A stretch of 55,772 bases of DNA, from assembly GCA_902790935.1 (NCBI GenBank), contig CADATP010000007.1:1-55772 (forward strand). The letters are read 5' to 3'. Position numbers and translations under genes: made by a program. Shown piece by piece: positions 12,912-27,024 of the stretch. Source of the DNA: an uncultured Lachnospiraceae bacterium (GTDB lineage Bacteria; Bacillota; Clostridia; Lachnospirales; Lachnospiraceae). Position 1 is the stretch's first letter. Each line of letters opens with the position of its first letter. A model generated the notes under the pieces. The model searched no databases. It was not told where the DNA came from and was given only the letters and a program-made list of their open reading frames with translations.

Positions 12912-13670
12912 TTAGCAAATCACATAATACACGCCTTCAGGGTCTGAAAAGCTTTTGATCCGTACTCCAAAAACCTTTTCTATGATCCCGCTCTCAAGTA
13001 TATCAGCAGGAGTCCCCTTAAAAACTATCTTTCTATCGTTCATCACGACGATCTCGTCTGAGATATTTAGAGCGCTTAGGATATCGTGAAGTACAAGTAC
13101 GACAGTCTTCCCCTCATCCCGGAGCCTTCTGTACAATCCAAGGATTTTTCTTTGACCCTGTATATCTAGAAAAGTAGTAGGCTCGTCCGCTATCATATAT
13201 TCGCATTCCTGGGCCAGAGAAAGAGCGAAAAAGCTGCGCTGCCTGACTCCTCCGGACAAAACATCCACAGGAACTTTTTCGTACTTTTTTACGTCGGATA
13301 CTTCCATCGCTTTCTCTACCGCCTCCTTATCCCGAGCCGACATACTTCGCGCAAATCCAAGATAAGGGAATCTTCCGTGAGATACAAGAAGCCCTGTAGA
13401 TATTGATGGAATCGTATTTCTAACCTGTGGCAAAAAGGAAAGGATCCTTCCTCTCTTTTTAGGATCAAAGGATAAGTAATCCTCCCCATCCAAAAGTATC
13501 TTTCCCTTACTTACCCGTACCGACCCGTTTAAGGCGCTGACAAGGCTTGTCTTTCCGCATCCGTTGGGGCCGATTATCGTCGTAAGCTTTCCCTCTTTGA
13601 ACTCTATATTTATGTCCGAAAGAATCTTCTCGCCTCCGGCAATGATATCAACATTTTCATATTTAAGCAT
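12912..13670 (-). CDS. Iron/tetrapyrrole ABC transporter ATPase (FecE/BtuD type)
   Basis: A 252-residue ABC ATPase: Walker A GPNGCGKTS, Q-loop in FLPQVRN, signature LSGGVRQRSFFALSLA, Walker B YMIADEPTTFLD, switch His in VLVLHDI. The layout fits ATPases that pair with FecCD-type permeases for iron-siderophore, haem or corrinoid uptake. It overlaps the permease gene by 8 bases and is the last gene of the metY-sir-hcy operon. The cargo is not readable; the siroheme gene in the same operon points to iron or a tetrapyrrole. Confidence 0.92.
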   Translation of the reverse strand: MLKYENVDIIAGGEKILSDINIEFKEGKLTTIIGPNGCGKTSLVSALNGSVRVSKGKILLDGEDYLSFDPKKRGRILSFLPQVRNTIPSISTGLLVSHGRFPYLGFARSMSARDKEAVEKAMEVSDVKKYEKVPVDVLSGGVRQRSFFALSLAQECEYMIADEPTTFLDIQGQRKILGLYRRLRDEGKTVVLVLHDILSALNISDEIVVMNDRKIVFKGTPADILESGIIEKVFGVRIKSFSDPEGVYYVIC

Positions 13671-14694
13671 GCAGCCTTCGTCCCCCTTTCTTTCTAAGTA
13701 TCAGATACATAAAGAAAGGTCCGCCGACAAAGGACATTATTATTCCCGTGGGAAGCTCGTAGGGTGCAAAGAGTATTCTGCTCAAAAGATCGCAGAGCAT
13801 TACAAAGCTTCCGCCCAAAAGAGCGCTGCAGGGAATCAGGAATCTTGCATCGTTTCCAAAGAGTTTTCTGCAGATATGGGGAACAATCAGTCCTGCAAAG
13901 CTTAAAATCCCGCCGAAGCTTACGACACATCCGGCGAGGATACTTGATATGACTAAAAGCAGGAACCTTGCAAGAGATACCCGCATACCAAGGGATGCCG
14001 CAACATTATCTCCCAGTCCGAGAAGGTTAAGGGGTCTCGATAAAAGAACAGCAAAGATGAAACCGGTGGTTATTCCTATGCTCGGGAGCGCTATGGATTT
14101 AAACGTGACTCCACTCAGATTTCCCATCAAAAAGGAATTGATATTGATGATGATATCCGTATTAAGTGTTTTGATCAGATTTATCCCCGCGGATAAAAAG
14201 CTGGAAACCGTAATACCGGCGAGGATTATTGTTATACGGGAGGTATCTGAAAAGTAGGCCAGTACGAATATAGAAAGAGTTGCGATTAGGGCTCCGAAAA
14301 AAGCAAATACCGGCTGCGCCCAGACCTTACCGGGAAAGAGTAGCAAGGAAAGCATTACAAAAAATCCGGCGCCGCTTCCGACGCCGATTGTATTTGGACT
14401 GGCTAATGCATTGTTCATTACACCCTGGAGTATTACTCCGGCTACAGATAACCCGATTCCGGCGAGCAGTCCGCCGATTACTCTCGGAAGTCTGATATTT
14501 CGGATTATAATAATCGTTTTTTGCGGTATATCTCCCGCGTCATTTAGCTTGCCGTCTTTAATGAGCGCTCTGAAGATATCCGTTGGTGATATCTTGACGC
14601 TTCCCAAAGAAAGGCAAAGGATAAATAATATAAAAAGAAGAGCAAAGAGGACCGCGATCATGATGCCTTTGTTTTTAATGTTTATCTTAGCCAT
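13663..14694 (-). CDS. FecCD-family ABC permease
   Basis: A 343-residue permease with about ten hydrophobic segments. Family motifs are clear: RLPRVIGGLLAGIGLSVAGV near residue 65, GVILQGVMNNALASPNTIGV after it, and FAGLIVPHICRK towards the C-terminus. FecCD permeases form homodimers or heterodimers with a FecE-type ATPase; only one permease gene is present, so a homodimer is inferred. It overlaps the ATPase gene and lies 21 bases after the precorrin-2 dehydrogenase gene. The binding protein is encoded at 15327. Confidence 0.94.
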   Translation of the reverse strand: MAKINIKNKGIMIAVLFALLFILFILCLSLGSVKISPTDIFRALIKDGKLNDAGDIPQKTIIIIRNIRLPRVIGGLLAGIGLSVAGVILQGVMNNALASPNTIGVGSGAGFFVMLSLLLFPGKVWAQPVFAFFGALIATLSIFVLAYFSDTSRITIILAGITVSSFLSAGINLIKTLNTDIIININSFLMGNLSGVTFKSIALPSIGITTGFIFAVLLSRPLNLLGLGDNVAASLGMRVSLARFLLLVISSILAGCVVSFGGILSFAGLIVPHICRKLFGNDARFLIPCSALLGGSFVMLCDLLSRILFAPYELPTGIIMSFVGGPFFMYLILRKKGGRRLHA

Positions 14695-14715
14695 TTGCTC
14701 TCCTTTCTATCAATG

Positions 14716-15324
14716 TTAAACAGATTTCAAGATGCCCTGTAATTCCTCGTCCTTAAGGCCTCTTCCAAGTCTAAGGCACTCTGCTCCGGCGGCTTTAAAT
14801 ATTCTATGCCTAACCGTTGGATCCGAAATCTTTTCCTTTACGTAAGGTCTTATGCCTGCTAAATAGTCGAGGATCTCTTCTATATCATCAGGTATTACCT
14901 TTTCGAATTCCTTACGTAAGTGTACTGCGACAGCAGGGCTTGCGCCGGAGCTTGTAATTCCGGCTACGAGCTTCCCCCGCTTTACTACCGATGGAAAAAT
15001 AAAATCGCAAAGATCCTGATTGTCCACAACATTAACAGGGACCTTTTGGGCTCTGCATATTTTATATATTTCCTCATTTATCGTCCGGTTTCCGGTTGCC
15101 GCTATGCAGTAATCCGCGCCGCTTAAATCGGCAGGCGTAAAATCTTTTCTTATACAATTAACAAAAGTATATTCTTCAATTTCAGGAAGTATATCGGGCG
15201 CTATAAGATTTAGATCAGCTCCGAAACCGGCAAGAGCTTCGACCTTTTCAAGCGCTATCTTTCCGCCCCCGATTATTACACCTTTTTTTCCACTTAGTTC
15301 AAAGAAAAACGGAAATACCGACAC
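14716..15324 (-). CDS. Precorrin-2 dehydrogenase (siroheme synthesis)
   Basis: A 202-residue protein matching the N-terminal (Met8p/SirC) half of CysG. The Rossmann motif VIIGGGKIALEKVEAL is at residues 16-31, and the conserved NVVDNQDLCDFIFPS and GITSSGASPAVA segments follow. It oxidises precorrin-2 to sirohydrochlorin with NAD+ and may also insert iron. Siroheme is the cofactor of the sulfite reductase encoded at 18272 in the same operon. The start is GTG at 15324, two bases after the upstream stop, with GGAG in the end of the previous gene, indicating translational coupling. The methyltransferase half (CobA) is absent from the window. Confidence 0.92.
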   Translation of the reverse strand: MSVFPFFFELSGKKGVIIGGGKIALEKVEALAGFGADLNLIAPDILPEIEEYTFVNCIRKDFTPADLSGADYCIAATGNRTINEEIYKICRAQKVPVNVVDNQDLCDFIFPSVVKRGKLVAGITSSGASPAVAVHLRKEFEKVIPDDIEEILDYLAGIRPYVKEKISDPTVRHRIFKAAGAECLRLGRGLKDEELQGILKSV

Positions 15325-15326
15325 TT

Positions 15327-16382
15327 TTATTCTCCGTATAAAATATTTGCAAGTTTCTCGTAAGCCTCACCCCAGCGGGCATTGGGCTTTGAATTGTAAA
15401 GCTCTTTTTCAATCTCGAAATATCTGCCGCTTTTTACGGCAGAGAGCTCCGACCAGGCGGGATTGTTGCTGAGAAGATCGGCTACATTTGCAAGAGCTGC
15501 TTCCTTATCCTCTCCCTGAGTAGTAACAAAGATATAATCCGGATCAGCCGCAACGATTGCCTCGAGACTCAAGTCGTCAAGCAGCGCAGTATCACCATCG
15601 GCTATATTTATAGCACCCAAGTCAGCAAGGATCTCTCCTCCCACAGTTCCTTCGCTGCCCTTTGCCTTTACTGAGCTTGCGGCAGCTCTGATAAATAATA
15701 CAGTAGGAGCCTTTTCACCTCCGGCGAGCTTAGCATCAAGATCCTGTTTTGCCTTTTCCCTGATATCATCGATAGCTGCTGCAACAGAAGTGCCGTACTT
15801 TTCGTAGTTTTCTGTATTTCCGGTAATCCTTGTGCATATTCCAAGCATATTTAAATAATCATCAAAGTTAGATACTTCAAAGTAAGCAAAGGGTACTCCG
15901 CTCGTCTCGAAGGTATCAAGGAGCTCTACCTGAGCTGACGTACCTGCGCTTGCGATGATAAAATCAGGCTCTGCCTCAAAAAGCTTTTCAAGATCAGGTT
16001 CCATAAAGCTTCCGACATTAACAGTCGTCTCTGAAAGCCCTAAGTCAAATGATGTCCAGGCATCCTTTACAGTAACGGCAACCTCCCCTCCTGCAAGGGT
16101 CCAGACATCAGCAAAGCTTCCAAGAAGGACAGCAACCTTCTTTGGACTCTCCACAGTAACCTGACGGCCGAGGGCGTCGGTAAAGGATACAGGTCCTGAG
16201 ACTTCTTCAATGTTTTCCCCCTCAGGTTTTGCTTTGGTATTTTCCTCAGCTTCACCGGTTACAGCAGTCTCCTCTACTGCAGCAATCTCCCCCTCTTCAC
16301 TCACCGGCTGCTGCTTTCCGCAACCTGCTGCAGCAAAAATTACAGTCGCGCTTAATAGTAATGATACGATCAATTTTTTCAT
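15327..16382 (-). CDS. FecB/BtuF-type substrate-binding lipoprotein
   Basis: A 351-residue binding protein with a lipoprotein signal (MKKLIVSLLLSATVIFAAAG, lipobox Cys21), an acidic linker to about residue 60, then a two-lobed class III binding fold with the usual start FTDALGRQVTVESPKKVAVL. The C-terminal Arg-Trp-Gly motif (NARWGEAYEKLANILY) is also typical. It delivers a chelate to the FecCD/FecE system encoded downstream. Ligand unknown: iron chelate, haem or corrinoid. It is 14 bases after the JAMM protease gene and is followed immediately by the siroheme gene. Confidence 0.9.
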   Translation of the reverse strand: MKKLIVSLLLSATVIFAAAGCGKQQPVSEEGEIAAVEETAVTGEAEENTKAKPEGENIEEVSGPVSFTDALGRQVTVESPKKVAVLLGSFADVWTLAGGEVAVTVKDAWTSFDLGLSETTVNVGSFMEPDLEKLFEAEPDFIIASAGTSAQVELLDTFETSGVPFAYFEVSNFDDYLNMLGICTRITGNTENYEKYGTSVAAAIDDIREKAKQDLDAKLAGGEKAPTVLFIRAAASSVKAKGSEGTVGGEILADLGAINIADGDTALLDDLSLEAIVAADPDYIFVTTQGEDKEAALANVADLLSNNPAWSELSAVKSGRYFEIEKELYNSKPNARWGEAYEKLANILYGE

Positions 16383-16396
16383 AATCTTTTTCCGTT

Positions 16397-16828
16397 CTAA
16401 TAATAATACTTTTCAGAGAACATCCTCAGGTCCTCTTTTGTCACTTCCCCGTTCTCTACATGAAACGAGTTAAGGACAGGGTTTTTCGCCATAAGCGAAA
16501 GGATAAAATAGCTTGCATTCTTATCGTAAGAAAGCCTTATATCTTCCTCGGAAGGTCTTGAGGGAGATTCGGGATGAGAATGCCAGTTTCCGAGAGGCTT
16601 GTAACCATTGGCACGCATATCCTTTACCGCTTCGAGCTGCTCTTTGGGATCCATAGTGAAATGATCCTCGGCATGGTCTATATTGGTAAGATAATATACC
16701 TTCTCAACCTTTTTCCCGTTTTCGTCTTCGCTTCCCGCAATAAGGCCGCACGCCTCCTCGGGGAGATGCTCCCTTGCATACTCTACTATTTCGTCATAAA
16801 GGTGGTAGTCTATTCTGACAATTCCCAT
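16397..16828 (-). CDS. hcyD: JAMM metalloprotease, HcyD-like sulfur-carrier processing enzyme
   Basis: A 143-residue MPN/Mov34 protein of the bacterial Mec+/QbsD/HcyD group. The JAMM zinc motif is complete: Glu25 in PEEACG, then His83-Ser84-His85-x7-Ser93-x2-Asp96 (HSHPESPSRPSEED). Such enzymes trim residues after the GG of ubiquitin-like sulfur carriers and, in the HcyS pathway, also release homocysteine from the carrier. The carrier in this operon has an extra C-terminal residue that needs exactly such a protease. It lies 24 bases after the adenylyltransferase gene. The family is certain; the HcyD role is inferred from the neighbours. Confidence 0.9.
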   Translation of the reverse strand: MGIVRIDYHLYDEIVEYAREHLPEEACGLIAGSEDENGKKVEKVYYLTNIDHAEDHFTMDPKEQLEAVKDMRANGYKPLGNWHSHPESPSRPSEEDIRLSYDKNASYFILSLMAKNPVLNSFHVENGEVTKEDLRMFSEKYYY

Positions 16829-16852
16829 CTTGTTTCCTCGTCTTTCTAGGCT

Positions 16853-17671
16853 TCAATGTCCGCCCGGTTTGAATTCACAAGCTGCCTGCTCGTAATCGAT
16901 AGGCTCTAAGATTGTCGGATTATCTCCGCAAACCGGGCACTTATGTGTATCGGCAGGGAGCTTGATCTTATGAAACTCCATAGTAAGGGCATCGTAAGTA
17001 AGAAGATAACCGGTAAGAAGATTTCCGACTCCGATTATATACTTTACCGCTTCCATAGCCTGAAGGCTTCCGATAACACCGCCCATAGCGCCGATAACTC
17101 CGGCCTGCTTACAGGTAGGAACAGCATCCTTCGGCGGGGGATTCTTGAATACGCAGCGGTAGCAGGGTCCCTGACCGGGTACATAAGTCATAAGCTGTCC
17201 CTTAAAGCGGATGATTCCCGCATGTGAAAAAGGCTTTTTCTCGATTACGCAGGCATCATTTATCAAAAACTTTGCAGGAAAGTTGTCAGTCCCGTCGATA
17301 ATGAAATCATACTCGCGTATGAGCTCCCTGATATTGGTAGAATCCACGAACATATGGTAAGTTTTTACTTCCACATCCGGGTTCATAGCGTTCATAGTCT
17401 CTTTTGCGGATTGTACCTTAGGCTTACCTACGTCAGCTGTTCCGTGGATGATCTGGCGCTGAAGGTTTGAAAGATCTACCTCGTCAGCATCAACAATGCC
17501 AATGGTTCCCACACCTGCTGCCGCAAGATACATTGCTGCAGGGGCTCCGAGTCCGCCGGCTCCGACGATGAGAACCTTTGCGTTAAGGAGCTTCTTCTGG
17601 CCCTTTGCGCCCACCTCTTTTAATATGATATGCCTTGAGTAACGCTCAAGCTGTTCATCTGTAAGTGCCAT
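16853..17671 (-). CDS. hcyF: E1-like adenylyltransferase for the sulfur carrier (ThiF/MoeB/HcyF)
   Basis: A 272-residue ThiF/MoeB enzyme that adenylates the C-terminal glycine of the carrier with ATP. Visible: the N-terminal RYSRHIILKEVGAKGQKKL, nucleotide loop VGAGGLGAP (36-44), NLQRQIIHG, the Asp-containing IDGTDNFPAKF, and two CxxC pairs for zinc (CYRC and CPVC). The start at 17671 is chosen over an ATG two codons upstream because the GGAGG is then correctly spaced. The start codon shares one base with the stop of the carrier gene (TAATG), and its RBS lies inside the carrier's GGG codons, so the two are tightly coupled. Confidence 0.93.
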   Translation of the reverse strand: MALTDEQLERYSRHIILKEVGAKGQKKLLNAKVLIVGAGGLGAPAAMYLAAAGVGTIGIVDADEVDLSNLQRQIIHGTADVGKPKVQSAKETMNAMNPDVEVKTYHMFVDSTNIRELIREYDFIIDGTDNFPAKFLINDACVIEKKPFSHAGIIRFKGQLMTYVPGQGPCYRCVFKNPPPKDAVPTCKQAGVIGAMGGVIGSLQAMEAVKYIIGVGNLLTGYLLTYDALTMEFHKIKLPADTHKCPVCGDNPTILEPIDYEQAACEFKPGGH

Positions 17672-17877
17672 TAGCATCCACCTCCCATGAAGTAGAGGAA
17701 CTCAACATTGTCCCCTTCCTTTAAAACGGTAGTCGCCTTTTTATCAGCCTCAACAAACTCCTCATTTATCGATACGGTTACATACTCCGGCATCTCTACG
17801 TTTTCAAGTTCGAGAAGCTCGGGAAGTGTAAGCCCGTCTTTGTATTCCTTCTTTTCTCCTGCAACTGTAATTGTCAT
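17671..17877 (-). CDS. hcyS: ThiS/MoaD-like sulfur carrier protein with extra C-terminal Cys (HcyS-like)
   Basis: A 68-residue beta-grasp protein from MTITVAGEKKEY to a C-terminus FLYFMGGGC. ThiS-type carriers end in GG; here a Cys follows, so the carrier must be trimmed before adenylation, and a JAMM protease is encoded two genes downstream. The start at 17877 is supported by GGAGG eight bases before it; a longer frame to 17976 only translates a hairpin repeat and is rejected. With no thiG, thiH or moaE nearby, a thiamine or molybdopterin role is unlikely. Linked metY and sulfite reductase point to thiocarboxylate-dependent homocysteine synthesis. Confidence 0.9.
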   Translation of the reverse strand: MTITVAGEKKEYKDGLTLPELLELENVEMPEYVTVSINEEFVEADKKATTVLKEGDNVEFLYFMGGGC

Positions 17878-17898
17878 TTCATAATCCTCCATATTTTT

Positions 17899-17975
17899 GA
17901 CACAGGGGGACGGGGTTCCTGGTTCATTGTCAGAATATTCTGACAATGAACCCCCACCTCCGTCCCCGGGGGTCA
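17899..17975. repeat. REP-like palindromic element between tusA and hcyS
   Basis: A 77-bp imperfect palindrome. The core 17921-17952 is a perfect 32-bp inverted repeat (starts GGTTCATTGTCAG). The outer arms begin TGACACAGGGGGACGG and, on the other strand, TGACCCCCGGGGACGG. The GC-rich GGGGACGG arms are unlike the surrounding DNA and resemble dispersed REP elements moved by IS200-like REP-associated transposases. It starts directly at the tusA stop codon inside the operon. Only one copy is in this window, so its repeat status in the genome is inferred. Confidence 0.65.
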
Positions 17976-18221
17976 TTATTCTCCGACTTTCTTTACAAAT
18001 AGTGTGTATGTTCCGTCCTCGTTATCTTCAAGCTTTAGGATCTGGTGTCCTTCGTCTTTTATGGAACGGGGTACGTTTTGAACCGGTTCTCCGTCGTTCA
18101 TACGAATAGCAATGATCTGCCCTTCATCAAGCTCATCCAGCGCAACCTTCGCCTTAACAAAGGTCAGGGGGCAAACTTTATCCGTAATATCTACTTCTTC
18201 ATCAAATTTAATATCTGCCAT
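17976..18221 (-). CDS. tusA: TusA/SirA-like sulfurtransferase
   Basis: An 81-residue TusA-family protein. The family Cys-Pro motif is at residues 17-18 (DKVCPLTFVKAKVAL), where the Cys carries persulfide sulfur. Members relay sulfur between proteins; SirA/TusA-like genes occur in HcyS-type and other sulfur clusters. It lies between the sulfite reductase and the carrier gene, so it may pass sulfide-level sulfur from the reductase to the HcyF-HcyS complex or serve as an accessory relay. The exact partner is not known. Confidence 0.9.
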   Translation of the reverse strand: MADIKFDEEVDITDKVCPLTFVKAKVALDELDEGQIIAIRMNDGEPVQNVPRSIKDEGHQILKLEDNEDGTYTLFVKKVGE

Positions 18222-18271
18222 GTTTTACGTCCTTCCATTTTTATTCAAAACCCTTCTAAAATAAAAGGGCT

Positions 18272-19141
18272 TTACTTTCCTTCATAAGCTGCATATATCG
18301 CTTTTCTGAATTCTTCTTCTCCTACCCTCTGCAAGGTGAGGCGGAATCTCTCTCCGGGCTTGGCGTTTTTATCAAAGAAATCTATCGCCGCATCAGCAAC
18401 TCTAAAGAGCGTTTCCTTGTCCTTGATAATGGGTACTATCTGCTCGCCCTTGTAAATCTGATTTCCGAATAGTCCTCCGAATGAAACGATATATCCCGGT
18501 GTGTAATCCCATGCATCAACGGGGCAGCTCTTTACGCAGCGTCCGCAGTTGTTACACTTAGATGTATCAAGGACAACCTTGCCATCAACCAAAGACAGCG
18601 CTCCTTCGCGGCAGGCTTTGATACATACGCCGCAGGAAATACATGTCTCGGGCTTGTAATCAATAACATATCCTCCCTTAACTCCGAGATCGTTCTCCTC
18701 GCTCTTTAGACAGTTGTTCATACAACCTGTCACACCGAATTTGAATTTGTGCGGAAGCTCTCTTCCGAAATATCTTTCGTCAAATTCCTTTGCCAGTTCG
18801 TACGAATCAATACATCCGCTGGGGCAGATCGCGCTTCCCTGACAGGCGGTAACCGTTCTTACTCTGGGTCCGCAGACGCCGGGCTTAACGCCGCCTTCCG
18901 CAAGCTTTCCTCTTACCTCTTCGATATCATTGAAATTGATAAAAGGGATCTCTACTCCCTGTCTCGAGGTCATATGTACGTATCCGTGTCCGTACTTCTC
19001 TGCCACCTCGGCAATAGTCTTTATATTTTCAGCTGTAAGATTTCCCCCGACAACCGCAAGTCTTAATGAGAAGTAGCCCTTTTGCTTCTGTCTCATAAAG
19101 CCGCCTTTTTTCAGTGATGAATAATCGATCGCATCAGCCAT
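18272..19141 (-). CDS. Compact siroheme sulfite reductase with fused 2x[4Fe-4S] ferredoxin domain
   Basis: A 289-residue reductase, about half the size of CysI. Siroheme-[4Fe-4S] ligands are Cys100-x5-Cys106 (CQGSAIC) and Cys140-x3-Cys144 (CMNNC). An inserted bacterial ferredoxin follows with Cys167/170/173/177 and Cys196/199/202/206. The first 90 residues hold the half-domain HMTSRQGVEIPFI typical of nitrite/sulfite reductases. It resembles AsrC-like and other small assimilatory sulfite reductases of anaerobes and should turn sulfite into sulfide using ferredoxin electrons. Nitrite reduction is possible biochemically but the operon is all sulfur. GGAGG precedes the ATG. Confidence 0.9.
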   Translation of the reverse strand: MADAIDYSSLKKGGFMRQKQKGYFSLRLAVVGGNLTAENIKTIAEVAEKYGHGYVHMTSRQGVEIPFINFNDIEEVRGKLAEGGVKPGVCGPRVRTVTACQGSAICPSGCIDSYELAKEFDERYFGRELPHKFKFGVTGCMNNCLKSEENDLGVKGGYVIDYKPETCISCGVCIKACREGALSLVDGKVVLDTSKCNNCGRCVKSCPVDAWDYTPGYIVSFGGLFGNQIYKGEQIVPIIKDKETLFRVADAAIDFFDKNAKPGERFRLTLQRVGEEEFRKAIYAAYEGK

Positions 19142-19215
19142 CTTTACTTTCCTCCATACATAGCTTTCTTTTTCTTCTTCAAAACTTTTTCTAACTGTTT
19201 TCTTCTTCTAAAAAT

Positions 19216-20454
19216 CTATTCCTGATCCAGCTTTTCAAATGCCTTGTCAAAGTCTGCGATCAGATCCTCTATATCTTCAATTCCTACGCTGATCCTTATA
19301 AGGTCTTCGAATACTCCCGCATCCTCCTTTTGCTTGTCGGTAGAGTGCAGCGAGATAGTCGACGAAGGATGAAGCACCAGCGTTTTCGTATCTCCTATGT
19401 TTGAAAGCCTGTATGCGAGTTCAAGGAAATTTAAAAGCTTAAAAGCTCTTTCCCTGCTTCCTACACGGATCGTTACGATAGCTCCGTATCCGCCTTTTAA
19501 AACCTTATCTGCAATATCATGCCACTTACTTGTCTCAAGCCCCGGATAATTAACCGTAACCGACGGATATTTATCCTGCAAGTGCTTTGCAAGCAAAGCG
19601 GCGTTCGTACATTGGCGCTCCATACGAAGTCCCATTGTTTCTAAGCCGATCTGGTTTAAGTATGCCGTCTGCGGCGCCATACAGGCTCCGGCGTTTCTTT
19701 GTAGTCCTGCCCTGAGCCTTGCTATATAAGCAAAAGGGCCAAACTTAAGATAGTCCTTAAGAACCGGGTATCTTTCGGCAGTCCATTTAAACTTACCGCC
19801 ATCGGTTAGCACGCCCCCTATTGCATTGCTGCTTCCGTTTATGTACTTTGATGTGGAATTGATAACAATATCCGCACCATGCTCTATAGGCTTTATCAGA
19901 TAAGCCGTAGCAACCGTATTGTCGATAAAAAGTGGAAGGCCGTGCGTGTGTGCAATCTGCGCCAGCTTATCGATATCGGTAACGTCAAGGCAGGGATTTC
20001 CGATGGTCTCCGCAAAGATCAGCTTTGTATTTTCATTGATAGCGGACTCTATCTCATCCCAGTTGTTGTTTTCTACGTATCTTGTCTTAATTCCAAAAGC
20101 TTCAAGATCTCTGAACAGATCGATCGTTCCGCCGTACAAGGAAGCGCTGGAAACTATCTCGTCACCTGTCATCAGGATATTTGTAAGAGCGTTGAAGATA
20201 GCAGCCATTCCCGAAGCTGTAGCAACAGTTCCTATACCGCCTTCTAGCTTATTGATCCTGTTCTCAAATACTGCGATCGTAGGGTTTTGAACTCTTGTAT
20301 AACAATATCCCGGGTTCTTTCCTCCGAATATGCCCGCAAGATCCTCCGCGCTTTGCTGGAAGAAGGCGCTTGTCTGGTAAATCGGTGTCAGGGTCGATCC
20401 ATATTTTTCTTTTTTATCAACTCCGTCATGGAGAAGTGCCGTATTGAAATTCAT
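19216..20454 (-). CDS. metY: O-acetylhomoserine sulfhydrylase
   Basis: A 412-residue Cys/Met-metabolism PLP enzyme. The PLP lysine is Lys203 in NSTSKYINGSS, and IFAETIGNPCLDVTDID and TVATASGMAAIF are family motifs. The length and the YCYTRVQNPT motif fit MetY rather than cystathionine gamma-synthase. It makes homocysteine from O-acetylhomoserine and sulfide or, in the HcyS pathway, from the carrier thiocarboxylate. It is the first gene of the sir-tusA-hcyS-hcyF-hcyD operon, with its own promoter region and a terminator upstream that closes the ssu operon. Confidence 0.94.
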   Translation of the reverse strand: MNFNTALLHDGVDKKEKYGSTLTPIYQTSAFFQQSAEDLAGIFGGKNPGYCYTRVQNPTIAVFENRINKLEGGIGTVATASGMAAIFNALTNILMTGDEIVSSASLYGGTIDLFRDLEAFGIKTRYVENNNWDEIESAINENTKLIFAETIGNPCLDVTDIDKLAQIAHTHGLPLFIDNTVATAYLIKPIEHGADIVINSTSKYINGSSNAIGGVLTDGGKFKWTAERYPVLKDYLKFGPFAYIARLRAGLQRNAGACMAPQTAYLNQIGLETMGLRMERQCTNAALLAKHLQDKYPSVTVNYPGLETSKWHDIADKVLKGGYGAIVTIRVGSRERAFKLLNFLELAYRLSNIGDTKTLVLHPSSTISLHSTDKQKEDAGVFEDLIRISVGIEDIEDLIADFDKAFEKLDQE

Positions 20455-20562
20455 TTTCTCGTTCCTCTTATCTTCCGGTCATCTTTCATTTCGGCTTTTC
20501 AAATAACTGATAGATATAGTATAGTCAAAGCCTATTGCACTGGGAAATACGTAAATAAAAGA
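20455..20562 (-). promoter_or_regulatory. metY operon upstream region with LysR-like box
   Basis: On the minus strand the region holds TTGACT and a TATACT/TATATC stretch that could be promoter boxes. An inverted repeat ATAG-N7-CTAT (20521-20535) of LysR T-N11-A form overlaps them. A second one, ATAGG-N5-CCTAT (20570-20584), lies upstream inside the terminator stem. No clear -35/-10 pair at 17 bases is present, as is usual for activator-dependent promoters. Confidence 0.45.
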
Positions 20563-20591
20563 GCCGGTAATAGGTATTTCCTATCGCCGGC
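20563..20591 (-). terminator. Terminator after ssuB
   Basis: Stem GCCGG/CCGGC and ATAGG/CCTAT, separated by one 2-base mismatch, with loop AAATA; on the minus strand it is followed by TCTTTTATTT. It sits just after the ssuB stop and before the metY promoter, so it should separate the two sulfur operons. Its upper stem doubles as a LysR-like palindrome. Confidence 0.7.
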
Positions 20592-20598
20592 TTGCTCT

Positions 20599-21363
20599 TT
20601 AAATCGCATAATCCATAATACTATGATTGAACATATTTGTAATGGTATTTCTGTAAAATGCAAAATCTTCGCTGTTACGCAATCTTGGTCTGGGAATTTT
20701 GATGCTTATTATCTGGTCAACCTCAGCCGGTCTGGGTTTCATGACAACAACCTTATCTCCAAGGAAAATAGCTTCATCAATGTCATGCGTAACCATGATC
20801 ATCGTTGTTTTTTCCTCTTCCCTGATTCTGTCGATCTCCGCCTGCATATTCATACGAGTGAGTGCATCAAGTGCTCCGAGCGGCTCATCCAAAAGAAGAA
20901 TTCTTGGGCGTCTCATAAGTGCCCTGGCTATGGACACTCTCTGAGCCATTCCGCCGGAGAGCTGACTTGGATATACCTTTTCAAAGTTTTCAAGATCTAC
21001 TTTTTTTAGATACTCCCTGGCAAGATCTTGTAACTCTTTTTTTGTTCCATCCAAACCAATGGTTAAGTTTTCCTCAACAGTGAGCCACGGAAGAAGCCTG
21101 TGTTCCTGAAAGATTACGCCACGATCAAGGCCGGCTTTTTCAACCTTTTTCCCATCCAACAGGATGTCCCCGCCGTAGTTTTTCTCAAGGCCTGCAATAA
21201 GCCTTAGCAAAGTTGTTTTACCGCATCCACTTGCTCCAATAATAGAGATAAACTCTCCCTCTTTCACATTAAAGCTGACATTTCTGATAGCTTCAACATC
21301 CTTATCCTTTGTGTGGAATACTTTTGATACATTCTTAATTTCCAAAATCGTATTCTGACTCAT
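20599..21363 (-). CDS. ssuB: Sulfonate/organosulfur ABC transporter ATPase
   Basis: A 254-residue ATPase of the nitrate/sulfonate/taurine group. Walker A GASGCGKTT, signature LSGGMAQRVSIARAL, Walker B ILLLDEPLGALD and switch His in VTHDIDEA are all intact. The start ATG at 21363 is chosen over a GTG at 21372 because of AAGGG eight bases before it. It follows the permease by 21 bases and ends the operon. The substrate is taken from context: a sulfonate or sulfinate used as sulfur source. Confidence 0.92.
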   Translation of the reverse strand: MSQNTILEIKNVSKVFHTKDKDVEAIRNVSFNVKEGEFISIIGASGCGKTTLLRLIAGLEKNYGGDILLDGKKVEKAGLDRGVIFQEHRLLPWLTVEENLTIGLDGTKKELQDLAREYLKKVDLENFEKVYPSQLSGGMAQRVSIARALMRRPRILLLDEPLGALDALTRMNMQAEIDRIREEEKTTMIMVTHDIDEAIFLGDKVVVMKPRPAEVDQIISIKIPRPRLRNSEDFAFYRNTITNMFNHSIMDYAI

Positions 21364-21384
21364 AATGATCACCCTTCAGCCTAA

Positions 21385-22239
21385 TTACCTGACTGTTTTC
21401 TTTTTCCACCTTAATGTGTTCTCCTCTATCTTTCTAAGGATCACATCAATGACCACACCGATAACGCCGATAACAACCATCAAAGCGATCAACTTATCTG
21501 ACCAAAGAAACTCTCTTGACTTCATCAAAGCGTATCCAAGTCCGGTCAGACCGCCAAGCATTTCCGCAGCCACTACAGCCATCCAGGCATTTCCGGCTCC
21601 CAGTCTAAGTCCGGTGAATATGGATGAAACAGCAGAAGGCAAAACTATCTTTCTCAAAAAAACACTTCTCTTAAGTTCAAGAACTTCCGCCAGTTCGAAG
21701 TACTCAGCCTGGACACCTTTTATTCCCTGTAGGGTATTTAGATAAATAGGAATAAGTACACCTCTGGCTATTATTATCTCCTTTGATACTTCACCAATGC
21801 CAAACCAAAGAATAATAATAGGCATCCAAGCGTATAGAGGAATCTGTCTGATGACATTTATTATTGGTGAAAAAACTCTTTCAGCAATTTTGTTGAGTCC
21901 CGAAAAGACACCCAGTATAAGAGCAATCCCGGCCCCCCAAAGATAACCGATAAGAACTCTTTTACCACTGACAGCAAGGTCAACGCCCAAAGAGCCGTCT
22001 TTTATCATCTCAAAAAAAGCTTTAATAACTTTCACAGGTGACGGGAGTATTACTTCCAAAAGAAGTCCGGATCCTGCTAAAGCCTGCCATAGGATTATTA
22101 AGAGAACGGGGACAGCTATGGTATTCAGCAAAGCGAGAAATCTGGGGCCGAACTTGCTGCTTCCGATATCTCCCGATAGCTTTTTAAATATGTTCTTTTC
22201 CACGGTTCCTTTACCGGTCAGTGTTAATTCTTTCGCCAT
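21385..22239 (-). CDS. ssuC: Sulfonate/organosulfur ABC transporter permease
   Basis: A 284-residue BPD-type permease with about six membrane segments. The EAA loop near the end (ELAEVLELKRSVFLRKIVLPSA) and the preceding RGVLIPIYLNTLQGIKGV are typical of SsuC/TauC. It forms a homodimeric channel with SsuB and receives substrate from the lipoprotein encoded 26 bases upstream. The family also carries nitrate, taurine or pyrimidine precursors; the linked desulfinase-like and sulfite reductase genes favour organosulfur. Confidence 0.92.
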   Translation of the reverse strand: MAKELTLTGKGTVEKNIFKKLSGDIGSSKFGPRFLALLNTIAVPVLLIILWQALAGSGLLLEVILPSPVKVIKAFFEMIKDGSLGVDLAVSGKRVLIGYLWGAGIALILGVFSGLNKIAERVFSPIINVIRQIPLYAWMPIIILWFGIGEVSKEIIIARGVLIPIYLNTLQGIKGVQAEYFELAEVLELKRSVFLRKIVLPSAVSSIFTGLRLGAGNAWMAVVAAEMLGGLTGLGYALMKSREFLWSDKLIALMVVIGVIGVVIDVILRKIEENTLRWKKKTVR

Positions 22240-22265
22240 TTTTCTTTCCTTTGCCTTATAAAGAT

Positions 22266-23432
22266 TTAGTTAAAGAAATTAGTGTTAAAGAAAGACTGCT
22301 TGTCTACGCGTCCCTCTTCTGTAAACTCTTCGGTATTCTCGATGAGCCAGTTCTGATAATTATCGGTGTCATCGATAAGTTCTGATAAAGGAGCTGATGC
22401 GGAATAGAAGGTTTCTTTGCTTCTATCGTTGTACCATGCAGTGTTTGCAGCAGGATCCCTGGTAATACCCTCGATTATCTTGGATGTTTCTTCGGGGTTC
22501 TGGATAATATAAGCATTTACAAGCTGACGAAGCTTAAGTACTGCTTTTAAGATATTTACGTGGCTATTGGCAAATTCAGTTGAAGAAAAAGTAACAGAAG
22601 CTCCACCGTAGTTGGTGTAAACACCATTCTCTTTTGCATTGGCAATCTCACGGAAGTTTCCTGTAATAATCTCATTGTTGATATTAGCAAAAGGATGTAC
22701 TGAGATTGCATCTACTTCGCCTGCATCAAGTGCTGTTTTGATATCGTTATTTGAAACGTTAGCATATGTCCAATCTGTTCCCTCAACCCATCCAAGATCG
22801 ATGGTCTGCTCGATAAGCGCCACATACTGGCATCCAGCCTTCCAGCTTGCGATTGTCTTTCCCTTAAGATCTTCAAGAGACTGATAATCTGAATCTTTAC
22901 TTACAAGGATCGTAACAATTCCGGGAGCAGGATCCTCGGAAAGTTCAACTGCTGTCAAATCTCCGCCCTGTGACTTATAAAGGAGGTAGGGATAGAGCAT
23001 ACGATTTGTTAGATGGAGCTCATCTCTCTCCATAAGCTGTACTTCATTACCTACAGTTCCTTCTACTATAGCAACAGTAGTATTGTTATCTCCAAGCAAC
23101 TCGTTAAACCAGCCGTTCTTATCGGATATGTAAACCCATCCGCCTGAGCCGAGTTTTAGTGTATCAAGACTTTCGAACTCATATTTATCCTTAAGTTTCA
23201 CAATAGCTGCTTCGATAACAGCAGGAGTTACTACATCTGAGGGAGTTACGTTTCTGTCAAGAAGCTCAGCTGCAAGTGCTTCATCTTCCGCAGTTGCTGC
23301 CACAGTCTGCTGAACATCACTTGATGATGACTCGGTTCCGCTTCCGGCAGACCCGTTTCCGCACGCTGTTAAGGCAATCGCAGCGGTTAGTCCAAGTGAA
23401 ACGATTTTAGTTGCAATTTCAAGTTTTTTCAT
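22266..23432 (-). CDS. ssuA: SsuA/NMT1-like substrate-binding lipoprotein
   Basis: A 388-residue binding protein with a lipoprotein signal (lipobox LTAC, Cys24), a Ser-rich linker, and a periplasmic-binding-like fold with motifs TVAIVEGTVGNEVQLMERDELHLTN and DLKGKTIASWKAG. It is the extracellular receptor of SsuBC. An N-terminal segment of about 60 residues between the linker and the core fold is longer than in E. coli SsuA. AGGAG precedes the ATG. The ligand is inferred to be a sulfonate or sulfinate. Confidence 0.87.
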   Translation of the reverse strand: MKKLEIATKIVSLGLTAAIALTACGNGSAGSGTESSSSDVQQTVAATAEDEALAAELLDRNVTPSDVVTPAVIEAAIVKLKDKYEFESLDTLKLGSGGWVYISDKNGWFNELLGDNNTTVAIVEGTVGNEVQLMERDELHLTNRMLYPYLLYKSQGGDLTAVELSEDPAPGIVTILVSKDSDYQSLEDLKGKTIASWKAGCQYVALIEQTIDLGWVEGTDWTYANVSNNDIKTALDAGEVDAISVHPFANINNEIITGNFREIANAKENGVYTNYGGASVTFSSTEFANSHVNILKAVLKLRQLVNAYIIQNPEETSKIIEGITRDPAANTAWYNDRSKETFYSASAPLSELIDDTDNYQNWLIENTEEFTEEGRVDKQSFFNTNFFN

Positions 23433-23454
23433 ATTATATCTCCTCGTTAATTAA

Positions 23455-24465
23455 TTATTCTTCCTCTTCAAGTTCCTTAAGCGCTCTCTCCAGGAAACTT
23501 CTGTTGGCCCAGGATGCTACATCTACAACCGACTTTGTAAAACCGTGATCATAGAGGAACTGAGCACGTGTCTGAAGCGATTTTAATCCGGCTTCTGAAA
23601 AGTTAGGCTCAAGCTGTTTATAAAAATCAGCAGGATATGCTCTTCTATACTGCTCAACAGTACCATGAGTCTGCTCTGCCAGAAGTGCTTCCGCCTCATC
23701 CTTGTGATCCTTAGCCCATCTTGCTGCCTGGATTGCAGCCTTTAAGTACTCTACAACAACCTGTGGCTCCTCCTCGGCAAGCTTACGGCTTACAGTAAGA
23801 ACATTAGGCCACTCATTATTTACAGGATCAACGCTGTCCTGGTCAGCTACAAGATTGATCAGCTTTCTGTACTTTTTATCTTCAAGTACGATCTCTGATG
23901 CTGAAAGCTTTACAAATACCGCGTCTACCTTGCCCTCATCAAGAGCCTCGAAATCAAGTCCGGGTTTAAAGGTCCATTTTGCGGTACCATTTGGATAGTC
24001 AGGCTTCTCATCTACGATGTATACCCACTCTACATCATCCTTACTCAATCCGGCTGATTTAAGAGCGACTTCAAATCCTTCTATGGTTGCGGTCTTTTGA
24101 TGGTCAATAGTAACGTTTATTCTATCCGGAATACCGATCTTCTTTCCTTTAAGATCAGCCACAGTTTTAATATCCGAATCTGCTCTCACAACAATAGCCT
24201 GCTGGCCGGGGATAAGATTGATTCCTATCAAAACAGGTTCTGCTCCTCTGGACTTTGCCCAAATAGGAGGAGTGTTTCCACCCTCGCGAAAGAGTCTGTC
24301 ATTCTCGTATGTAAAATGCTCTTTCCAATGCTCCTGCTCGAGAGTTTGAAGTCTTACAGGCGTATAACCGATCTTCTCAAGTCTTTCATTTAGGAAGCCA
24401 TGGTTGGCTGCTATGTATGATGCATTTGCCACGGGGCAGATTGTGTAGTTAAATTCTTTTGACAT
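23455..24465 (-). CDS. DszB-like sulfinate desulfinase, cytosolic
   Basis: A 336-residue protein of the SsuA/NMT1 fold without signal peptide or lipobox; it starts MSKEFNYTICPVANASY after AGGAGG. It keeps the signature of DszB, the Rhodococcus 2-hydroxybiphenyl-2-sulfinate desulfinase: nucleophile Cys10 in a YxxCPVxNA context, His50 in HFTY, and Arg60-x-Gly62-Gly63 (FREGGNTPP). The His-to-Arg spacing of ten equals that of DszB (His60, Arg70). The C-terminus (LQTRAQFLYDHGF...WANRSFL) also follows the DszB pattern. It is the first gene of the ssu operon, and its product sulfite would feed the nearby sulfite reductase. The natural substrate is unknown. The comparison rests on remembered DszB sequence; a non-catalytic binding protein is the alternative. 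Confidence 0.75.
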   Translation of the reverse strand: MSKEFNYTICPVANASYIAANHGFLNERLEKIGYTPVRLQTLEQEHWKEHFTYENDRLFREGGNTPPIWAKSRGAEPVLIGINLIPGQQAIVVRADSDIKTVADLKGKKIGIPDRINVTIDHQKTATIEGFEVALKSAGLSKDDVEWVYIVDEKPDYPNGTAKWTFKPGLDFEALDEGKVDAVFVKLSASEIVLEDKKYRKLINLVADQDSVDPVNNEWPNVLTVSRKLAEEEPQVVVEYLKAAIQAARWAKDHKDEAEALLAEQTHGTVEQYRRAYPADFYKQLEPNFSEAGLKSLQTRAQFLYDHGFTKSVVDVASWANRSFLERALKELEEEE

Positions 24466-24541: not shown

Positions 24542-24615
24542 AGATTAACACAGGCCACGTTCATGCGTCCAATACCGCAAACCTATGATTTGCTATAACT
24601 ATTACTTATAGCAAA
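24542..24615 (-). promoter_or_regulatory. Promoter of the desulfinase-ssu operon with inverted-repeat operator, copy 1
   Basis: On the minus strand: inverted repeat TTTGCTATAA-N7-TTATAGCAAA (24589-24615), then ATAGGTTTGCGGTA, -35 TTGGAC (24567-24572), 19-base spacer and an extended -10 TGT-TAATCT (24542-24550). The inverted repeat is centred well upstream of the -35, as for LysR-type activators. It overlaps the stop codon of the preceding ABC ATPase gene. The long spacer suggests activator dependence. A near copy lies at 26951-27024. Confidence 0.72.
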
Positions 24616-25268
24616 ACACCATTTTCCATTTTGAAGACCTGATCCGCATATCCTTCCGCTTCTTTATCATGAGTAACCATAAGCACTGTAGTCCCGGACA
24701 TCGTCATCTTTTTTAATTCCGAAAGCACATTTTTCCGGTTATCTTCATCCAGATCTCCGGTGGGTTCATCCGCCAGAATTATGCTCGGTTTCCGAACTAT
24801 TGCCCTTACTATAGCAAGTCTTCTTTGTTCCCCACCGGATAATCCGCATGCAGGTTCATCTGACAGTTCAATAAGCCCAAACTGCCTTAATATTGCATCT
24901 ATATTCTCCCGAGGCACCCCATCTCCATACATTTCATACGGTAAAGATATATTCTCAAATACTGTAAGATGCTTTAGCGAAGAATTGCCCTGCGGAATCA
25001 CGCCAATATTCTTATTCCTATAGAAACTTCTCTCTCTATCACTCAGGCTATAGATATCTACATTACCAACGGTTACATCTCCTTTCTCCGGTCTTAGTAC
25101 ACCTGCCAGAATACTTAACAATGTGCTTTTCCCACTTCCGGAATGTCCAATAATAGCAGTAAGCTTTCCCTCCGGAACATCCAGTGATGTGCTGCATAAT
25201 TCAAAAATCGGTTTCTTCTTTTTCTTTCCGTAGTACTTGAAGGATACGTTTTTAGCAGATAAATTCAT
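24606..25268 (-). CDS. LolD/MacB-like ABC ATPase
   Basis: A 220-residue ATPase with Walker A GHSGSGKST, signature LSGGEQRRLAIVRAI, Walker B IILADEPTGDLD and switch His in VTHDKEA. It is the LolD/MacB/FtsE class, which drives mechanotransmission rather than solute import. It begins directly after the permease stop, with GGGAGGG as RBS. Its last codons and stop lie within the regulatory inverted repeat of the next operon. It works with the FtsX-like permease and the DUF4418 protein; cargo unknown. Confidence 0.93.
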   Translation of the reverse strand: MNLSAKNVSFKYYGKKKKKPIFELCSTSLDVPEGKLTAIIGHSGSGKSTLLSILAGVLRPEKGDVTVGNVDIYSLSDRERSFYRNKNIGVIPQGNSSLKHLTVFENISLPYEMYGDGVPRENIDAILRQFGLIELSDEPACGLSGGEQRRLAIVRAIVRKPSIILADEPTGDLDEDNRKNVLSELKKMTMSGTTVLMVTHDKEAEGYADQVFKMENGVLL

Positions 25269-26474
25269 CTATAATCCCTCCCGCAGTATAAGCGCTGTGT
25301 CTTTAGATGTTATCCTGTTTGCAGCTATAACCGACGTTAATACGCATACAATTGTCGACACTAAAACAGAAAATAAAAAAACTATTCCAATAATCCATCC
25401 ATTAGTCAAAAGCAGTGGAACCTTCAAAGCATCACGAAGTATGTCCGAAAAGGAAATGATCACGAGACTTGCTAACGCATTTCCTAACAACCCACCGCCG
25501 ACACTTATGATTATCGTTTCCCAAAGCAACACACCTGCAAGCATCTTCTTTGTTCCACCTATGATCCTGAGGAGTGCCAACTCACCAACTCTCTCGTTTA
25601 CTATCATATTAAATGAAACTATAAGAACAGCTATTGATAAGCCCCATATAAACACGATCAAACCGCCTACAACCTTTGATACTCCCGATAGTCCTTCAGA
25701 AATCCCGGAGACCATATCCTTAGAGGATATAGCCCTGACTCCTTCAAACTCCAGATTAATCTTCCTTGCTACGTCCCTTACTTCATAACCATCAGTTACA
25801 TCAATAAGCACCGATGAAACAGCGTTTTCCGGTTCCACAGATTCAAAATAATCAAATCCAATTTTATCTGCGCTTTCCATCATACGCTGTATTGTGTTCA
25901 TATCAGCATAAATAGCACTATCCAGTCCGGTTCCGGTCTTACCTAATTTCGCTACAGCTCTGCATTCAACATTATAAAACCTGAAACTTTTGTTCTCGGG
26001 AATTCTAATATCACTCCCGACTATGACATCTCCGTCATTTATCATTTTCCCATAATTCTCTAGTATCCAGGGTTTTACAGAAAAATCACTATCAGGATCA
26101 AACCCAATAATCTGGACCAAAGTATCACAGCATCCCGAAGATGCAGAAGCCAGATAAAACTGAGGAGAGGCGGCTTTCACCCCCTCTAAACCTCTGATAG
26201 CTTCAAGCACATCCATATCCATATAAAAATAGCCGGGAATTCCCTGTAGTAGTATCGATTCAAAAGTCCCTTCACCGGCCGCTTCCTCAGGGATTACTAT
26301 AATATCTGCTCCCAGCCTCTTTTCATAACTCCTAAGTCCATTTTGGAGACTCCTGATTATTATTGAACCTCCGAATATCGAACAGGCCAGCAATGCCGCA
26401 AGCGCAAAAAGTGCTGCGCTTCTCCCCCAATGCCCTTTTATGTTTTTTATAGCGAGCTTGATTTCAAATCTCAT
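25269..26474 (-). CDS. FtsX/MacB-like ABC permease with conserved Cys-Cys
   Basis: A 401-residue permease: one N-terminal membrane helix (about 20-41), a large extracytoplasmic domain (about 45-270), then three C-terminal helices, the FtsX/MacB topology. Start at 26474 (MRFEIKLAIKNIKG) is 10 bases after the upstream stop; the upstream in-frame ATG would overlap that gene. The outer domain has an adjacent cysteine pair (Cys115-Cys116 in ASSGCCDTLVQIIGFDP), unusual for MacB and possibly a metal or thiol site. RBS is weak, so translation may be coupled to the DUF4418 gene. Confidence 0.88.
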   Translation of the reverse strand: MRFEIKLAIKNIKGHWGRSAALFALAALLACSIFGGSIIIRSLQNGLRSYEKRLGADIIVIPEEAAGEGTFESILLQGIPGYFYMDMDVLEAIRGLEGVKAASPQFYLASASSGCCDTLVQIIGFDPDSDFSVKPWILENYGKMINDGDVIVGSDIRIPENKSFRFYNVECRAVAKLGKTGTGLDSAIYADMNTIQRMMESADKIGFDYFESVEPENAVSSVLIDVTDGYEVRDVARKINLEFEGVRAISSKDMVSGISEGLSGVSKVVGGLIVFIWGLSIAVLIVSFNMIVNERVGELALLRIIGGTKKMLAGVLLWETIIISVGGGLLGNALASLVIISFSDILRDALKVPLLLTNGWIIGIVFLFSVLVSTIVCVLTSVIAANRITSKDTALILREGL

Positions 26475-26484
26475 AACCGTACCA

Positions 26485-26950: not shown

Positions 26951-27024
26951 ATATTAGCACCCCGAAATATTTATCGTCCAATACCGCAAACCTATGGTTT
27001 GTTATAAGTAATGCTTATAACAAA
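26951..27024 (-). promoter_or_regulatory. Promoter of the DUF4418-ABC cassette with inverted-repeat operator, copy 2
   Basis: Inverted repeat TTTGTTATAAG-N5-CTTATAACAAA (26998-27024), -35 TTGGAC (26976-26981), 19-base spacer, extended -10 TGC-TAATAT (26951-26959), on the minus strand. Over 26975-27030 it matches copy 1 at 48 of 56 positions. Within the stem a C-G pair of copy 1 (24593/24611) is replaced by T-A (27002/27020), keeping the pairing. Confidence 0.72.

Follow-up and report, generated by a model that had tools for sequence, protein, structure and literature searches.

We analyzed a stretch of 55,772 nucleotides (the window) that spans positions 1 to 55,772 of contig CADATP010000007.1, assembly GCA_902790935.1, from an uncultured Lachnospiraceae bacterium. 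A minus-strand locus at 12912-24465 probably encodes an oxygen-independent assimilation of organosulfur, in which sulfur would pass from a sulfinate to sulfite, to sulfide, to the thiocarboxylate of the small carrier protein HcyS and finally to homocysteine; we give this reading a probability of about 0.6. It draws on the genes and their motifs, the synteny in relatives, the predicted fold of the desulfinase, the failure to find sulfate activation and the boxes shared by promoters. The following genes were found in the locus:

23455..24465, minus strand: DszB-type desulfinase, 336 aa (phmmer, alignment, predicted fold)
22266..23432, minus strand: SsuA-like substrate-binding lipoprotein (NMT1, 38.6 bits; SsuA_fam, 80.7 bits, under the cut-off of 163.5)
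21385..22239, minus strand: SsuC-like permease (PF00528; SsuC, 165.7 bits for a cut-off of 347, and SaoP, 185.5 bits, both under cut-off)
20599..21372, minus strand: SsuB-like ATPase (PF00005, 126 bits)
19216..20454, minus strand: MetY, O-acetylhomoserine sulfhydrylase family (PF01053, 381 bits; TIGR01326, 456.9 bits, below the cut-off of 495.1)
18272..19141, minus strand: compact siroheme-type sulfite reductase (Sir) with ferredoxin insert (NIR_SIR, NIR_SIR_ferr; sulfite_red_C, 155 bits, under cut-off)
17976..18221, minus strand: TusA-like sulfurtransferase (PF01206, 72.6 bits)
17671..17877, minus strand: HcyS, ThiS-like carrier, 68 aa (PF02597; TIGR01683 (thiS), 59 bits, cut-off 37.45)
16853..17677, minus strand: HcyF, E1-like adenylating enzyme (PF00899, 299.7 bits, the sole strong Pfam domain)
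16397..16828, minus strand: HcyD, JAMM metalloprotease (PF14464, 86.5 bits)
15327..16382, minus strand: FecB-type substrate-binding lipoprotein (IsdE model, 72 bits, below cut-off)
14716..15324, minus strand: precorrin-2 dehydrogenase, CysG N-terminal type (TIGR01470, 134.5 bits, cut-off 62.3)
13663..14694, minus strand: FecCD-type permease (family-model scan)
12912..13670, minus strand: FecE-type ATPase (from the open reading frame list, without a family-library scan; homologues adjoin FecD in relatives)

All genes named in the first-pass annotation of this DNA were recovered in the order it gave (open reading frame list, family scans); the FecB lipoprotein, the FecCD permease and the FecE ATPase, which it had omitted, complete the list. 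Its ssuABC genes are present and Ssu-like, but the importer fails the curated cut-offs of both SsuA and SsuC. The two operons it described are separated in the window by the largest intergenic gap of the locus, 144 nt 5' of metY, followed in size by the 98 nt that separate the carrier gene from tusA; in locus L027, however, ssuB and metY are only 11 nt apart, so the whole set there looks like a single transcript, and L028 and L031 carry intervening genes at this point.

From this gene content we infer the reactions, the substrate, a regulator and a siroheme supply as follows. The Ssu-like ABC importer would take up an organic sulfinate that is probably unsaturated, for instance aromatic, and the cytoplasmic DszB-type enzyme would protonate its sulfur-bearing carbon, releasing sulfite. 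The compact siroheme sulfite reductase would convert sulfite to sulfide, and TusA probably passes the sulfur on. HcyD is predicted to remove the residue after the GGG of HcyS, HcyF to adenylate the new C-terminus on the way to the thiocarboxylate, and MetY to form homocysteine from this thiocarboxylate and O-acetylhomoserine. A LysR-type regulator would switch the promoters of the locus jointly, while FecBCD and precorrin-2 dehydrogenase would furnish siroheme for the sulfite reductase.

The DszB-like protein of the window matched DszB (2de2) with an E-value of 7.9e-23 in phmmer, and no signal peptide was seen in it. Residues T8, C10, H50, R60, G62, and G63 were invariant across 32 aligned sequences, that is, the window protein and 31 proteins from the best-match loci listed (the L027-L105 set). 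By alignment, T8 is equivalent to S25 of DszB (Thr replacing Ser), C10 to C27, H50 to H60, R60 to R70, and G62/G63 to the glycines of RXGG; in DszB, C27, H60, and R70 are implicated in catalysis, S25 partners H60, and RXGG is a conserved motif (PMC6100217, in the part of the text available to us). The structure model built from the 32-row alignment had a mean predicted local distance difference test score (pLDDT) of 92 and a predicted template modeling score (pTM) of 0.90. In a Foldseek search against the PDB the three best matches were all DszB entries (2de3: E 4.7e-25, TM-score 0.79), with 26% identity to DszB in the structural alignment; SsuA (3uif) ranked behind them with a TM-score of 0.72, and Thi5 and a decarboxylase lower still. 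With the catalytic residues of DszB kept and DszB as the best structural match, the initial assignment of this gene to a DszB-like desulfinase holds.

According to the favoured mechanism, a cysteine of DszB donates a proton to the aromatic carbon and SO2 is freed, the substrate being an aromatic sulfinate (PMC6100217, in part). An aromatic or otherwise unsaturated sulfinate is for this reason the expected substrate, and judging from sequence a sulfinate is probably used rather than a sulfonate. The first-pass annotation had allowed both; its sulfonate half is unsupported, since DszB removes sulfinate and no gene of the locus converts a sulfonate into one. It is nevertheless conceivable, if unlikely, that the DszB-like protein has a sulfonate as its substrate, or works as a lyase on C-S or C-C bonds of another compound, and that the locus serves a sulfonate or different organosulfur route: the importer resembles sulfonate importers, the wider fold takes in Thi5 and a decarboxylase, and a glycyl-radical gene of the HpsG type lies beside the same back end in L162, L175, and L158. 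The invariance of the DszB set of Ser/Thr, Cys, His, and RXGG in all 32 sequences and the rank of DszB as best fold match argue for a sulfinate desulfinase instead.

L028 (4819-5826), L029 (11014-12042), and L030 (11011-12039) have a further DszB-like gene whose product is 51-53% identical to that of the window; this type is likewise listed for L033, L034, L036, and L026 and retains the CPV, H, and RXGG motifs. The additional copy may widen the substrate range.

The carrier ends in FMGGG-C. The extra C-terminal residue noted at first pass is thus real, although the start had to be moved from 17976 to 17877 (68 aa), which is judged from the sequence, with ggagg upstream, to be the most likely one. 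The same pattern, GGG followed by 1-7 extra residues, was found in 44 of 45 related carriers; the exception is a carrier reading frame in L160 that is perhaps mis-called. A masked GGG end calls for a trimming protease, which fits HcyD. In all five sequences compared, E25, HSH 83-85, S93, and D96 of HcyD are invariant (E25/H83-S-H85/S93/D96 is presumably the JAMM metal motif), as are C100x5C106 and C140x3C144 of the sulfite reductase, which we take to be the siroheme-cluster motif. The HcyS-HcyF-HcyD-MetY-Sir-TusA set is therefore present, with its motifs intact, as had been annotated.

Several other features of the back end were observed. In 10 of 12 loci inspected (L138, L139, L142, L143, L144, L148, L149, L151, L152, and L170), but not in the window, tusA and hcyS flank a gene for a thioredoxin-like protein of some 105 aa. 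L154, L159, L163, L168, L169, and partly L139 have another set close to the Hcy cluster, made up of an E1-like protein of 484-513 aa, which differs from HcyF in length, and a MetY; in several loci a small JAB-like protein is added. Positions 17905-17967 of the window, in the tusA-hcyS gap, hold a long palindrome with the core GTTCATTGTCAGAATATTCTGACAATGAAC. The core occurs once in the window, and because the corresponding gap in L027 measures only 15 nt, the palindrome seems to be a short repeat inserted here. An Rfam scan of the window, serving as RNA control, returned zero families at the gathering score.

Genes for sulfate activation were sought in the genomes of the window and of L027-L032. 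None of the seven had a match to ATP-sulfurylase (PF01747), and PF01507 (CysD/PAPS reductase) was found in none of the five that carry the joined locus (window, L027, L028, L029, and L031); PF01507 was present in the genomes of L030 and L032, where CysD lies beside CysN, AprA, and an AprB-like ferredoxin. We also failed to find the SsuD/DszA-type (bacterial-luciferase-type) monooxygenase family PF00296 in any of nine genomes, and none of the 13 loci L027-L039 (three of them shorter than 9 kb) gave an LLM- or acyl-CoA-dehydrogenase-like match, so that neither SsuD nor the 4S-type partners DszA and DszC were detected by these searches. At L040-L105, among the matches listed, an LLM-family (DszA-like) gene was found in 50 of 66 loci, and an LLM or acyl-CoA-dehydrogenase-like gene in 53 of 66. 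The absence of sulfate-activation genes and the avoidance of SsuD-type monooxygenases, both proposed from the window alone, are thus supported in the five genomes with the joined locus and in the nine genomes, respectively.

The gene order of the window recurs in relatives. Loci L027-L105 are the best 79 of the DszB-like loci listed, and their numbers are not population counts. L027 is the nearest relative among the matches listed, with a DszB-like protein 89-90% identical to that of the window. L027, L028, L029, and L031 contain the same genes in the same order as far as the fetched stretches reach, and L030 does so when L203 is taken as the end of its contig. Among the seven named Lachnospiraceae loci in the matches listed, the joined set sought after the first-pass annotation was accordingly found in four, and in L030 via L203. 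The order shared by the window and L027-L031 is more than chance. In the L032 genome, HcyD and HcyF are encoded on a separate contig (L184), and the L037 stretch stops at a contig edge. Two loci, L028 and L030, have rumen named as their source; codes of the RUG and RUI type at other loci presumably also stand for rumen. Ten of the 14 loci L026-L039 have a binding-protein homologue next to the DszB-like gene. Outside the Lachnospiraceae, a DszB-like gene with a homologous importer occurs in G504/L026, Paenibacillus (L033), and Treponema (L036); in L034, a short contig of Synergistaceae, it is accompanied by the binding protein alone.

Within the family, 397 genomes including that of the window were searched for HcyD at a threshold of E 1e-12, and 49, the window's included, were positive, which makes the back end ordinary for Lachnospiraceae. 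The DszB profile matched three of the 397 (G000, G723, and G724), all of them among the 49 (p = 0.0018; 0.014 with the window genome given). In G723 (L178) the DszB-like gene lies 59 nt from HcyS-HcyF-HcyD; that of G724 is on a contig of 3 kb, where its neighbour is a lipoprotein matching SsuA weakly (28 bits). In a single-sequence search of 150 family genomes, 14 genomes besides that of the window gave weak DszB matches (E 6e-10 to 9e-4), which were taken to be binding-protein relatives and left uncounted. In a phylum sample of 398 genomes, G504 carries two close DszB copies; weak matches in G323 and G448 were set aside.

LysR-type regulators follow the T-N11-A rule, which is fitted by the motif ATAG-N7-NTAT. 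Boxes of this kind, and an operon preceded by one of them, were found at these places:

24572..24586, minus strand: LysR-type box ATAG-N7-GTAT upstream of dszB
20570..20584, minus strand: first LysR-type box ATAG-N7-CTAT upstream of metY
20521..20535, minus strand: second LysR-type box upstream of metY
26981..26995, minus strand: 15-base box of identical sequence, 5' of the DUF4418-FtsX-ATPase operon
24606..26910, minus strand: operon of a DUF4418 protein, an FtsX-like permease and an ATPase, upstream of dszB

ATAG-N7-NTAT precedes dszB in all six loci (window, L027-L031), which are relatives and so do not count as independent trials, and metY in all five that have a gap there. In 500 shuffles per stretch the box arose in 6-55 cases for the dszB stretches and in 11-26 for the metY stretches. 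The window-wide count, 7 for 6.9 expected, is at chance level, so only placement and conservation serve as evidence; of five places with a box in the window, two are upstream of metY, one of dszB, and one of the DUF4418 operon. The connection of front and back end supposed at first pass is thus genomic, through synteny in relatives, and probably regulatory, through the shared boxes. In the window itself no regulator was identified; LysR-type genes adjoin the front ends in L032, L142, L162, and L175, and the 75 nt before the dszB of L032 contain no box. Promoter and terminator scans stayed close to shuffles (31 for 23.8, sd 5.6; 14 for 11.3, sd 3.1) and were not used.

Genes of the DUF4418/FtsX/ATPase kind also lie upstream of dszB in L028, L029, and L030. 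By eye, some 45 bases of this operon's promoter in the window are similar to the dszB promoter; the box is present at the DUF4418 promoter in L028 and L029, with none on the gene's strand in L030 and none at the FtsX gene of L031. The operon could possibly be the export arm of the same regulon.

Several points weigh against the proposed pathway. The window genome is a 2.28 Mb draft, 82.7% complete, and is the only one of the six window-type genomes (window, L027-L031) with a completeness figure; the L030 genome carries sulfate activation as well; and other genes separate ssuB from metY in L028 and L031, of which L028, like L029, also has the second DszB copy. We know of no common rumen sulfinate of the aromatic type. 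The published DszB mechanism concerns an aromatic sulfinate (PMC6100217, in part). The DszB-like genes of L035 and L039 lie inside a corrinoid methyltransferase cluster, and Hcy genes are absent from the fetched stretches of L026, L033, L034, and L036; a DszB-like enzyme is therefore not tied to the Hcy pathway. Finally, the carrier exceeds the cut-off of the ThiS model, as does the carrier of L178, and the E1-like enzyme exceeds those of ThiF (276.4 for 275.25 bits) and MoeB (299.2 for 266 bits), so the Hcy names of both rest on gene context. MetY may use free sulfide. These scores, together with the proposal in a 2006 survey that sets of JAB and E1 can serve as ubiquitin-like modifiers (PMC1779556, in part), would fit a carrier that serves thiamin synthesis or protein modification, with HcyS, HcyD, and HcyF not feeding MetY and MetY working on the sulfide from Sir. 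We hold this to be improbable, for the same survey, in the part available to us, places this operon type in sulfur assimilation and JAB outside thiamin operons (PMC1779556), and MetY, Sir, TusA, HcyS, HcyF, and HcyD are mostly encoded together in family loci uncut by contig ends.

The corrinoid clusters just mentioned belong to metagenome-assembled genomes of Gracilibacteraceae, with the DszB-like gene at 6024-7091 in L035 and at 9962-11035 in L039. In L035, the one searched with Pfam, a B12-binding protein, two URO-D proteins and a RACo-type activator were found. This context suggests that a sulfinate or a sulfone is processed there by a route linked to corrinoids.

Besides the window genome, 48 family genomes have HcyD; 44 of these (G135 contributing two; G548, G775, G688, and G066 left out) supplied 45 Hcy neighbourhoods, several of them cut by contig ends, in which sulfur entry beside the carrier pathway was compared. 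CysD, CysN, AprA, and an AprB-like gene all lie beside the Hcy cluster in 12 of the 45; the reference sequences labelled CysD, CysN, and AprA pass the curated cut-off, and that labelled AprB is below it (51 for 135.65 bits). An HpsG-type glycyl-radical gene is present in four, L158, L162, and L175 exceeding the NCBIfam HpsG cut-off of 1000 bits and L163, cut by the stretch end, reaching 368 bits. An arylsulfotransferase-like gene is present in three (L140, L141, and L142) and also in L030 (called by PF05935 in L030/L203 and L142, by similarity in L140 and L141), a DszB-like gene in one (L178), and no front end was recognised in the remaining neighbourhoods. The NCBIfam label of HpsG is dehydratase; HpsG is described as the sulfite-lyase of 2,3-dihydroxypropane-1-sulfonate (DHPS) (PMC8397734, in part). 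The HpsG/HpsH-type genes of L162, L175, L158, and L163 adjoin MetY or HcyS, and sulfur of DHPS-type sulfonates may be assimilated there via the carrier pathway. In L030 (18092-19609) and L140-L142, the arylsulfotransferase-like protein is encoded with an SsuC-like importer near MetY-Sir-Hcy.

Varied genes beside one back end give a picture of interchangeable front ends, which the first-pass annotation did not contain. A broader proposal may tentatively be built on it: oxygen-free front ends (DszB-type, glycyl-radical lyase, arylsulfotransferase-like, sulfate activation) would be interchangeable on a common thiocarboxylate back end, and loci of the DszB type would salvage siroheme through a dedicated FecBCD importing sirohydrochlorin, precorrin-2 or siroheme, with precorrin-2 dehydrogenase finishing the synthesis. 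Taken as a whole, we find this proposal possible but somewhat doubtful.

Regarding siroheme, searches of the six window-type genomes (window, L027-L031) detected neither porphobilinogen deaminase HemC (PF01379) nor any SUMT (TIGR01469) match above cut-off (the L030 genome has a match of 162 bits, under the 185-bit cut-off); HemC is present in G002, G723, and the L032 genome. The six nevertheless keep the siroheme sulfite reductase and precorrin-2 dehydrogenase, the L028 and L031 stretches ending before the dehydrogenase, and a reductase kept without HemC or SUMT being found suggests tetrapyrrole salvage. Of 55 Hcy genomes, 11 have a close orthologue of FecD (at least 510 bits). The search for HemC was negative in 10 of these 11 versus 12 of the 44 others (Fisher p = 1.8e-4; p = 0.014 with the six window-type genomes counted as one). 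G752, G784, G718, and G122, among the ten, are 96 to 100% complete. Two earlier neighbourhood versions of the test gave p = 0.033 and 0.037. G008, the eleventh FecD genome, was scored as having HemC in the statistics, its reading frame reaching only 39 bits for a cut-off of 164. A FecD threshold of 230 bits (p = 1.9e-7; 1.8e-5 collapsed) was picked after the scores were seen and is not relied on.

As the FecD orthologue tracks HemC loss, tetrapyrrole import is likely in these genomes, and FecBCD is the candidate importer; the FecB gene is also placed between those of HcyD and precorrin-2 dehydrogenase. There is an even chance, however, that FecBCD is an ordinary importer of iron-siderophores or corrinoids that merely shares the operon. 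Against the PDB the FecB profile matched 8bf6 best (70 bits), with siderophore-binding proteins next, and these are its closest named solved relatives. Genomes without HemC have lost corrin synthesis as well, a gap that a corrinoid importer would fill; taken alone, this favours such an importer. SUMT is kept in G718, G074, and G008, where an earlier imported precursor would be called for, and 12 Hcy genomes without HemC also lack a close FecD orthologue. The operon position and the 10 of 11 versus 12 of 44 association stand on the side of tetrapyrrole import.

The HcyS-HcyD-HcyF-MetY pathway of Wolinella succinogenes was reportedly described by Krishnamoorthy and Begley in 2011 (as mentioned in PMC5764234). 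That system is reported to be alike in carrier, JAMM protease, E1, MetY, and Sir and in the need to trim the carrier C-terminus, but an importer and a DszB-type enzyme stand here where sulfate genes stand there. The extra residue of the Wolinella carrier is said to be Ala; it is Cys in the window. Iyer, Burroughs and Aravind tabulated such operons in 2006, sulfate genes included, for Wolinella, several Firmicutes, and others (PMC1779556, in part). Their operon class 4e shares with the window the ThiS-like, JAB, E1-like, SirA, sulfite reductase, and O-acetylhomoserine sulfhydrylase genes and differs in listing sulfate/sulfite transporters, PAPS reductase, and ATP sulfurylase (PMC1779556, in part); the words sulfonate, taurine, and siroheme are absent from its text. 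DszB of the 4S pathway (2'-hydroxybiphenyl-2-sulfinate desulfinase) is alike in fold, in Cys/His/Arg and RXGG and in having no signal peptide (PMC6100217, in part); unlike it, the protein here is only 26% identical, had no DszA/DszC-type partner found, and belongs, judging from the family, to an anaerobic setting. The HpsG lyase and IsrBHDK likewise release sulfite from organosulfur without oxygen (PMC8397734 and PMC11423573, both in part) and differ from the window in enzyme families and substrate class.

The first-pass annotation had taken the gene combination to be undescribed in a gut or rumen Firmicute. For DszB with HcyS this stands, as the combination was not found in the literature searched, most subscription papers lying outside its coverage. 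For the carrier pathway it does not: the pathway is neither rare nor new in Firmicutes, given HcyD in 49 of 397 family genomes and the tabulation of 2006 (PMC1779556, in part). For sulfonate, oxygen-free assimilation has already been published (IsrBHDK; PMC11423573, in part). No dedicated siroheme-precursor importer is named in the titles and abstract openings of the literature searched. The new elements are a DszB front end joined to the carrier pathway, the regulation it probably has, and the question of siroheme; the carrier pathway itself is known and common in the family.

If the proposed pathway is correct, gut anaerobes would obtain sulfur from oxidised organosulfur without oxygenases, holding it on a protein carrier, and DszB-type enzymes would gain a role beyond oil desulfurization. 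Siroheme auxotrophy, with the reductase kept and the cofactor pathway apparently lost, would become directly testable.

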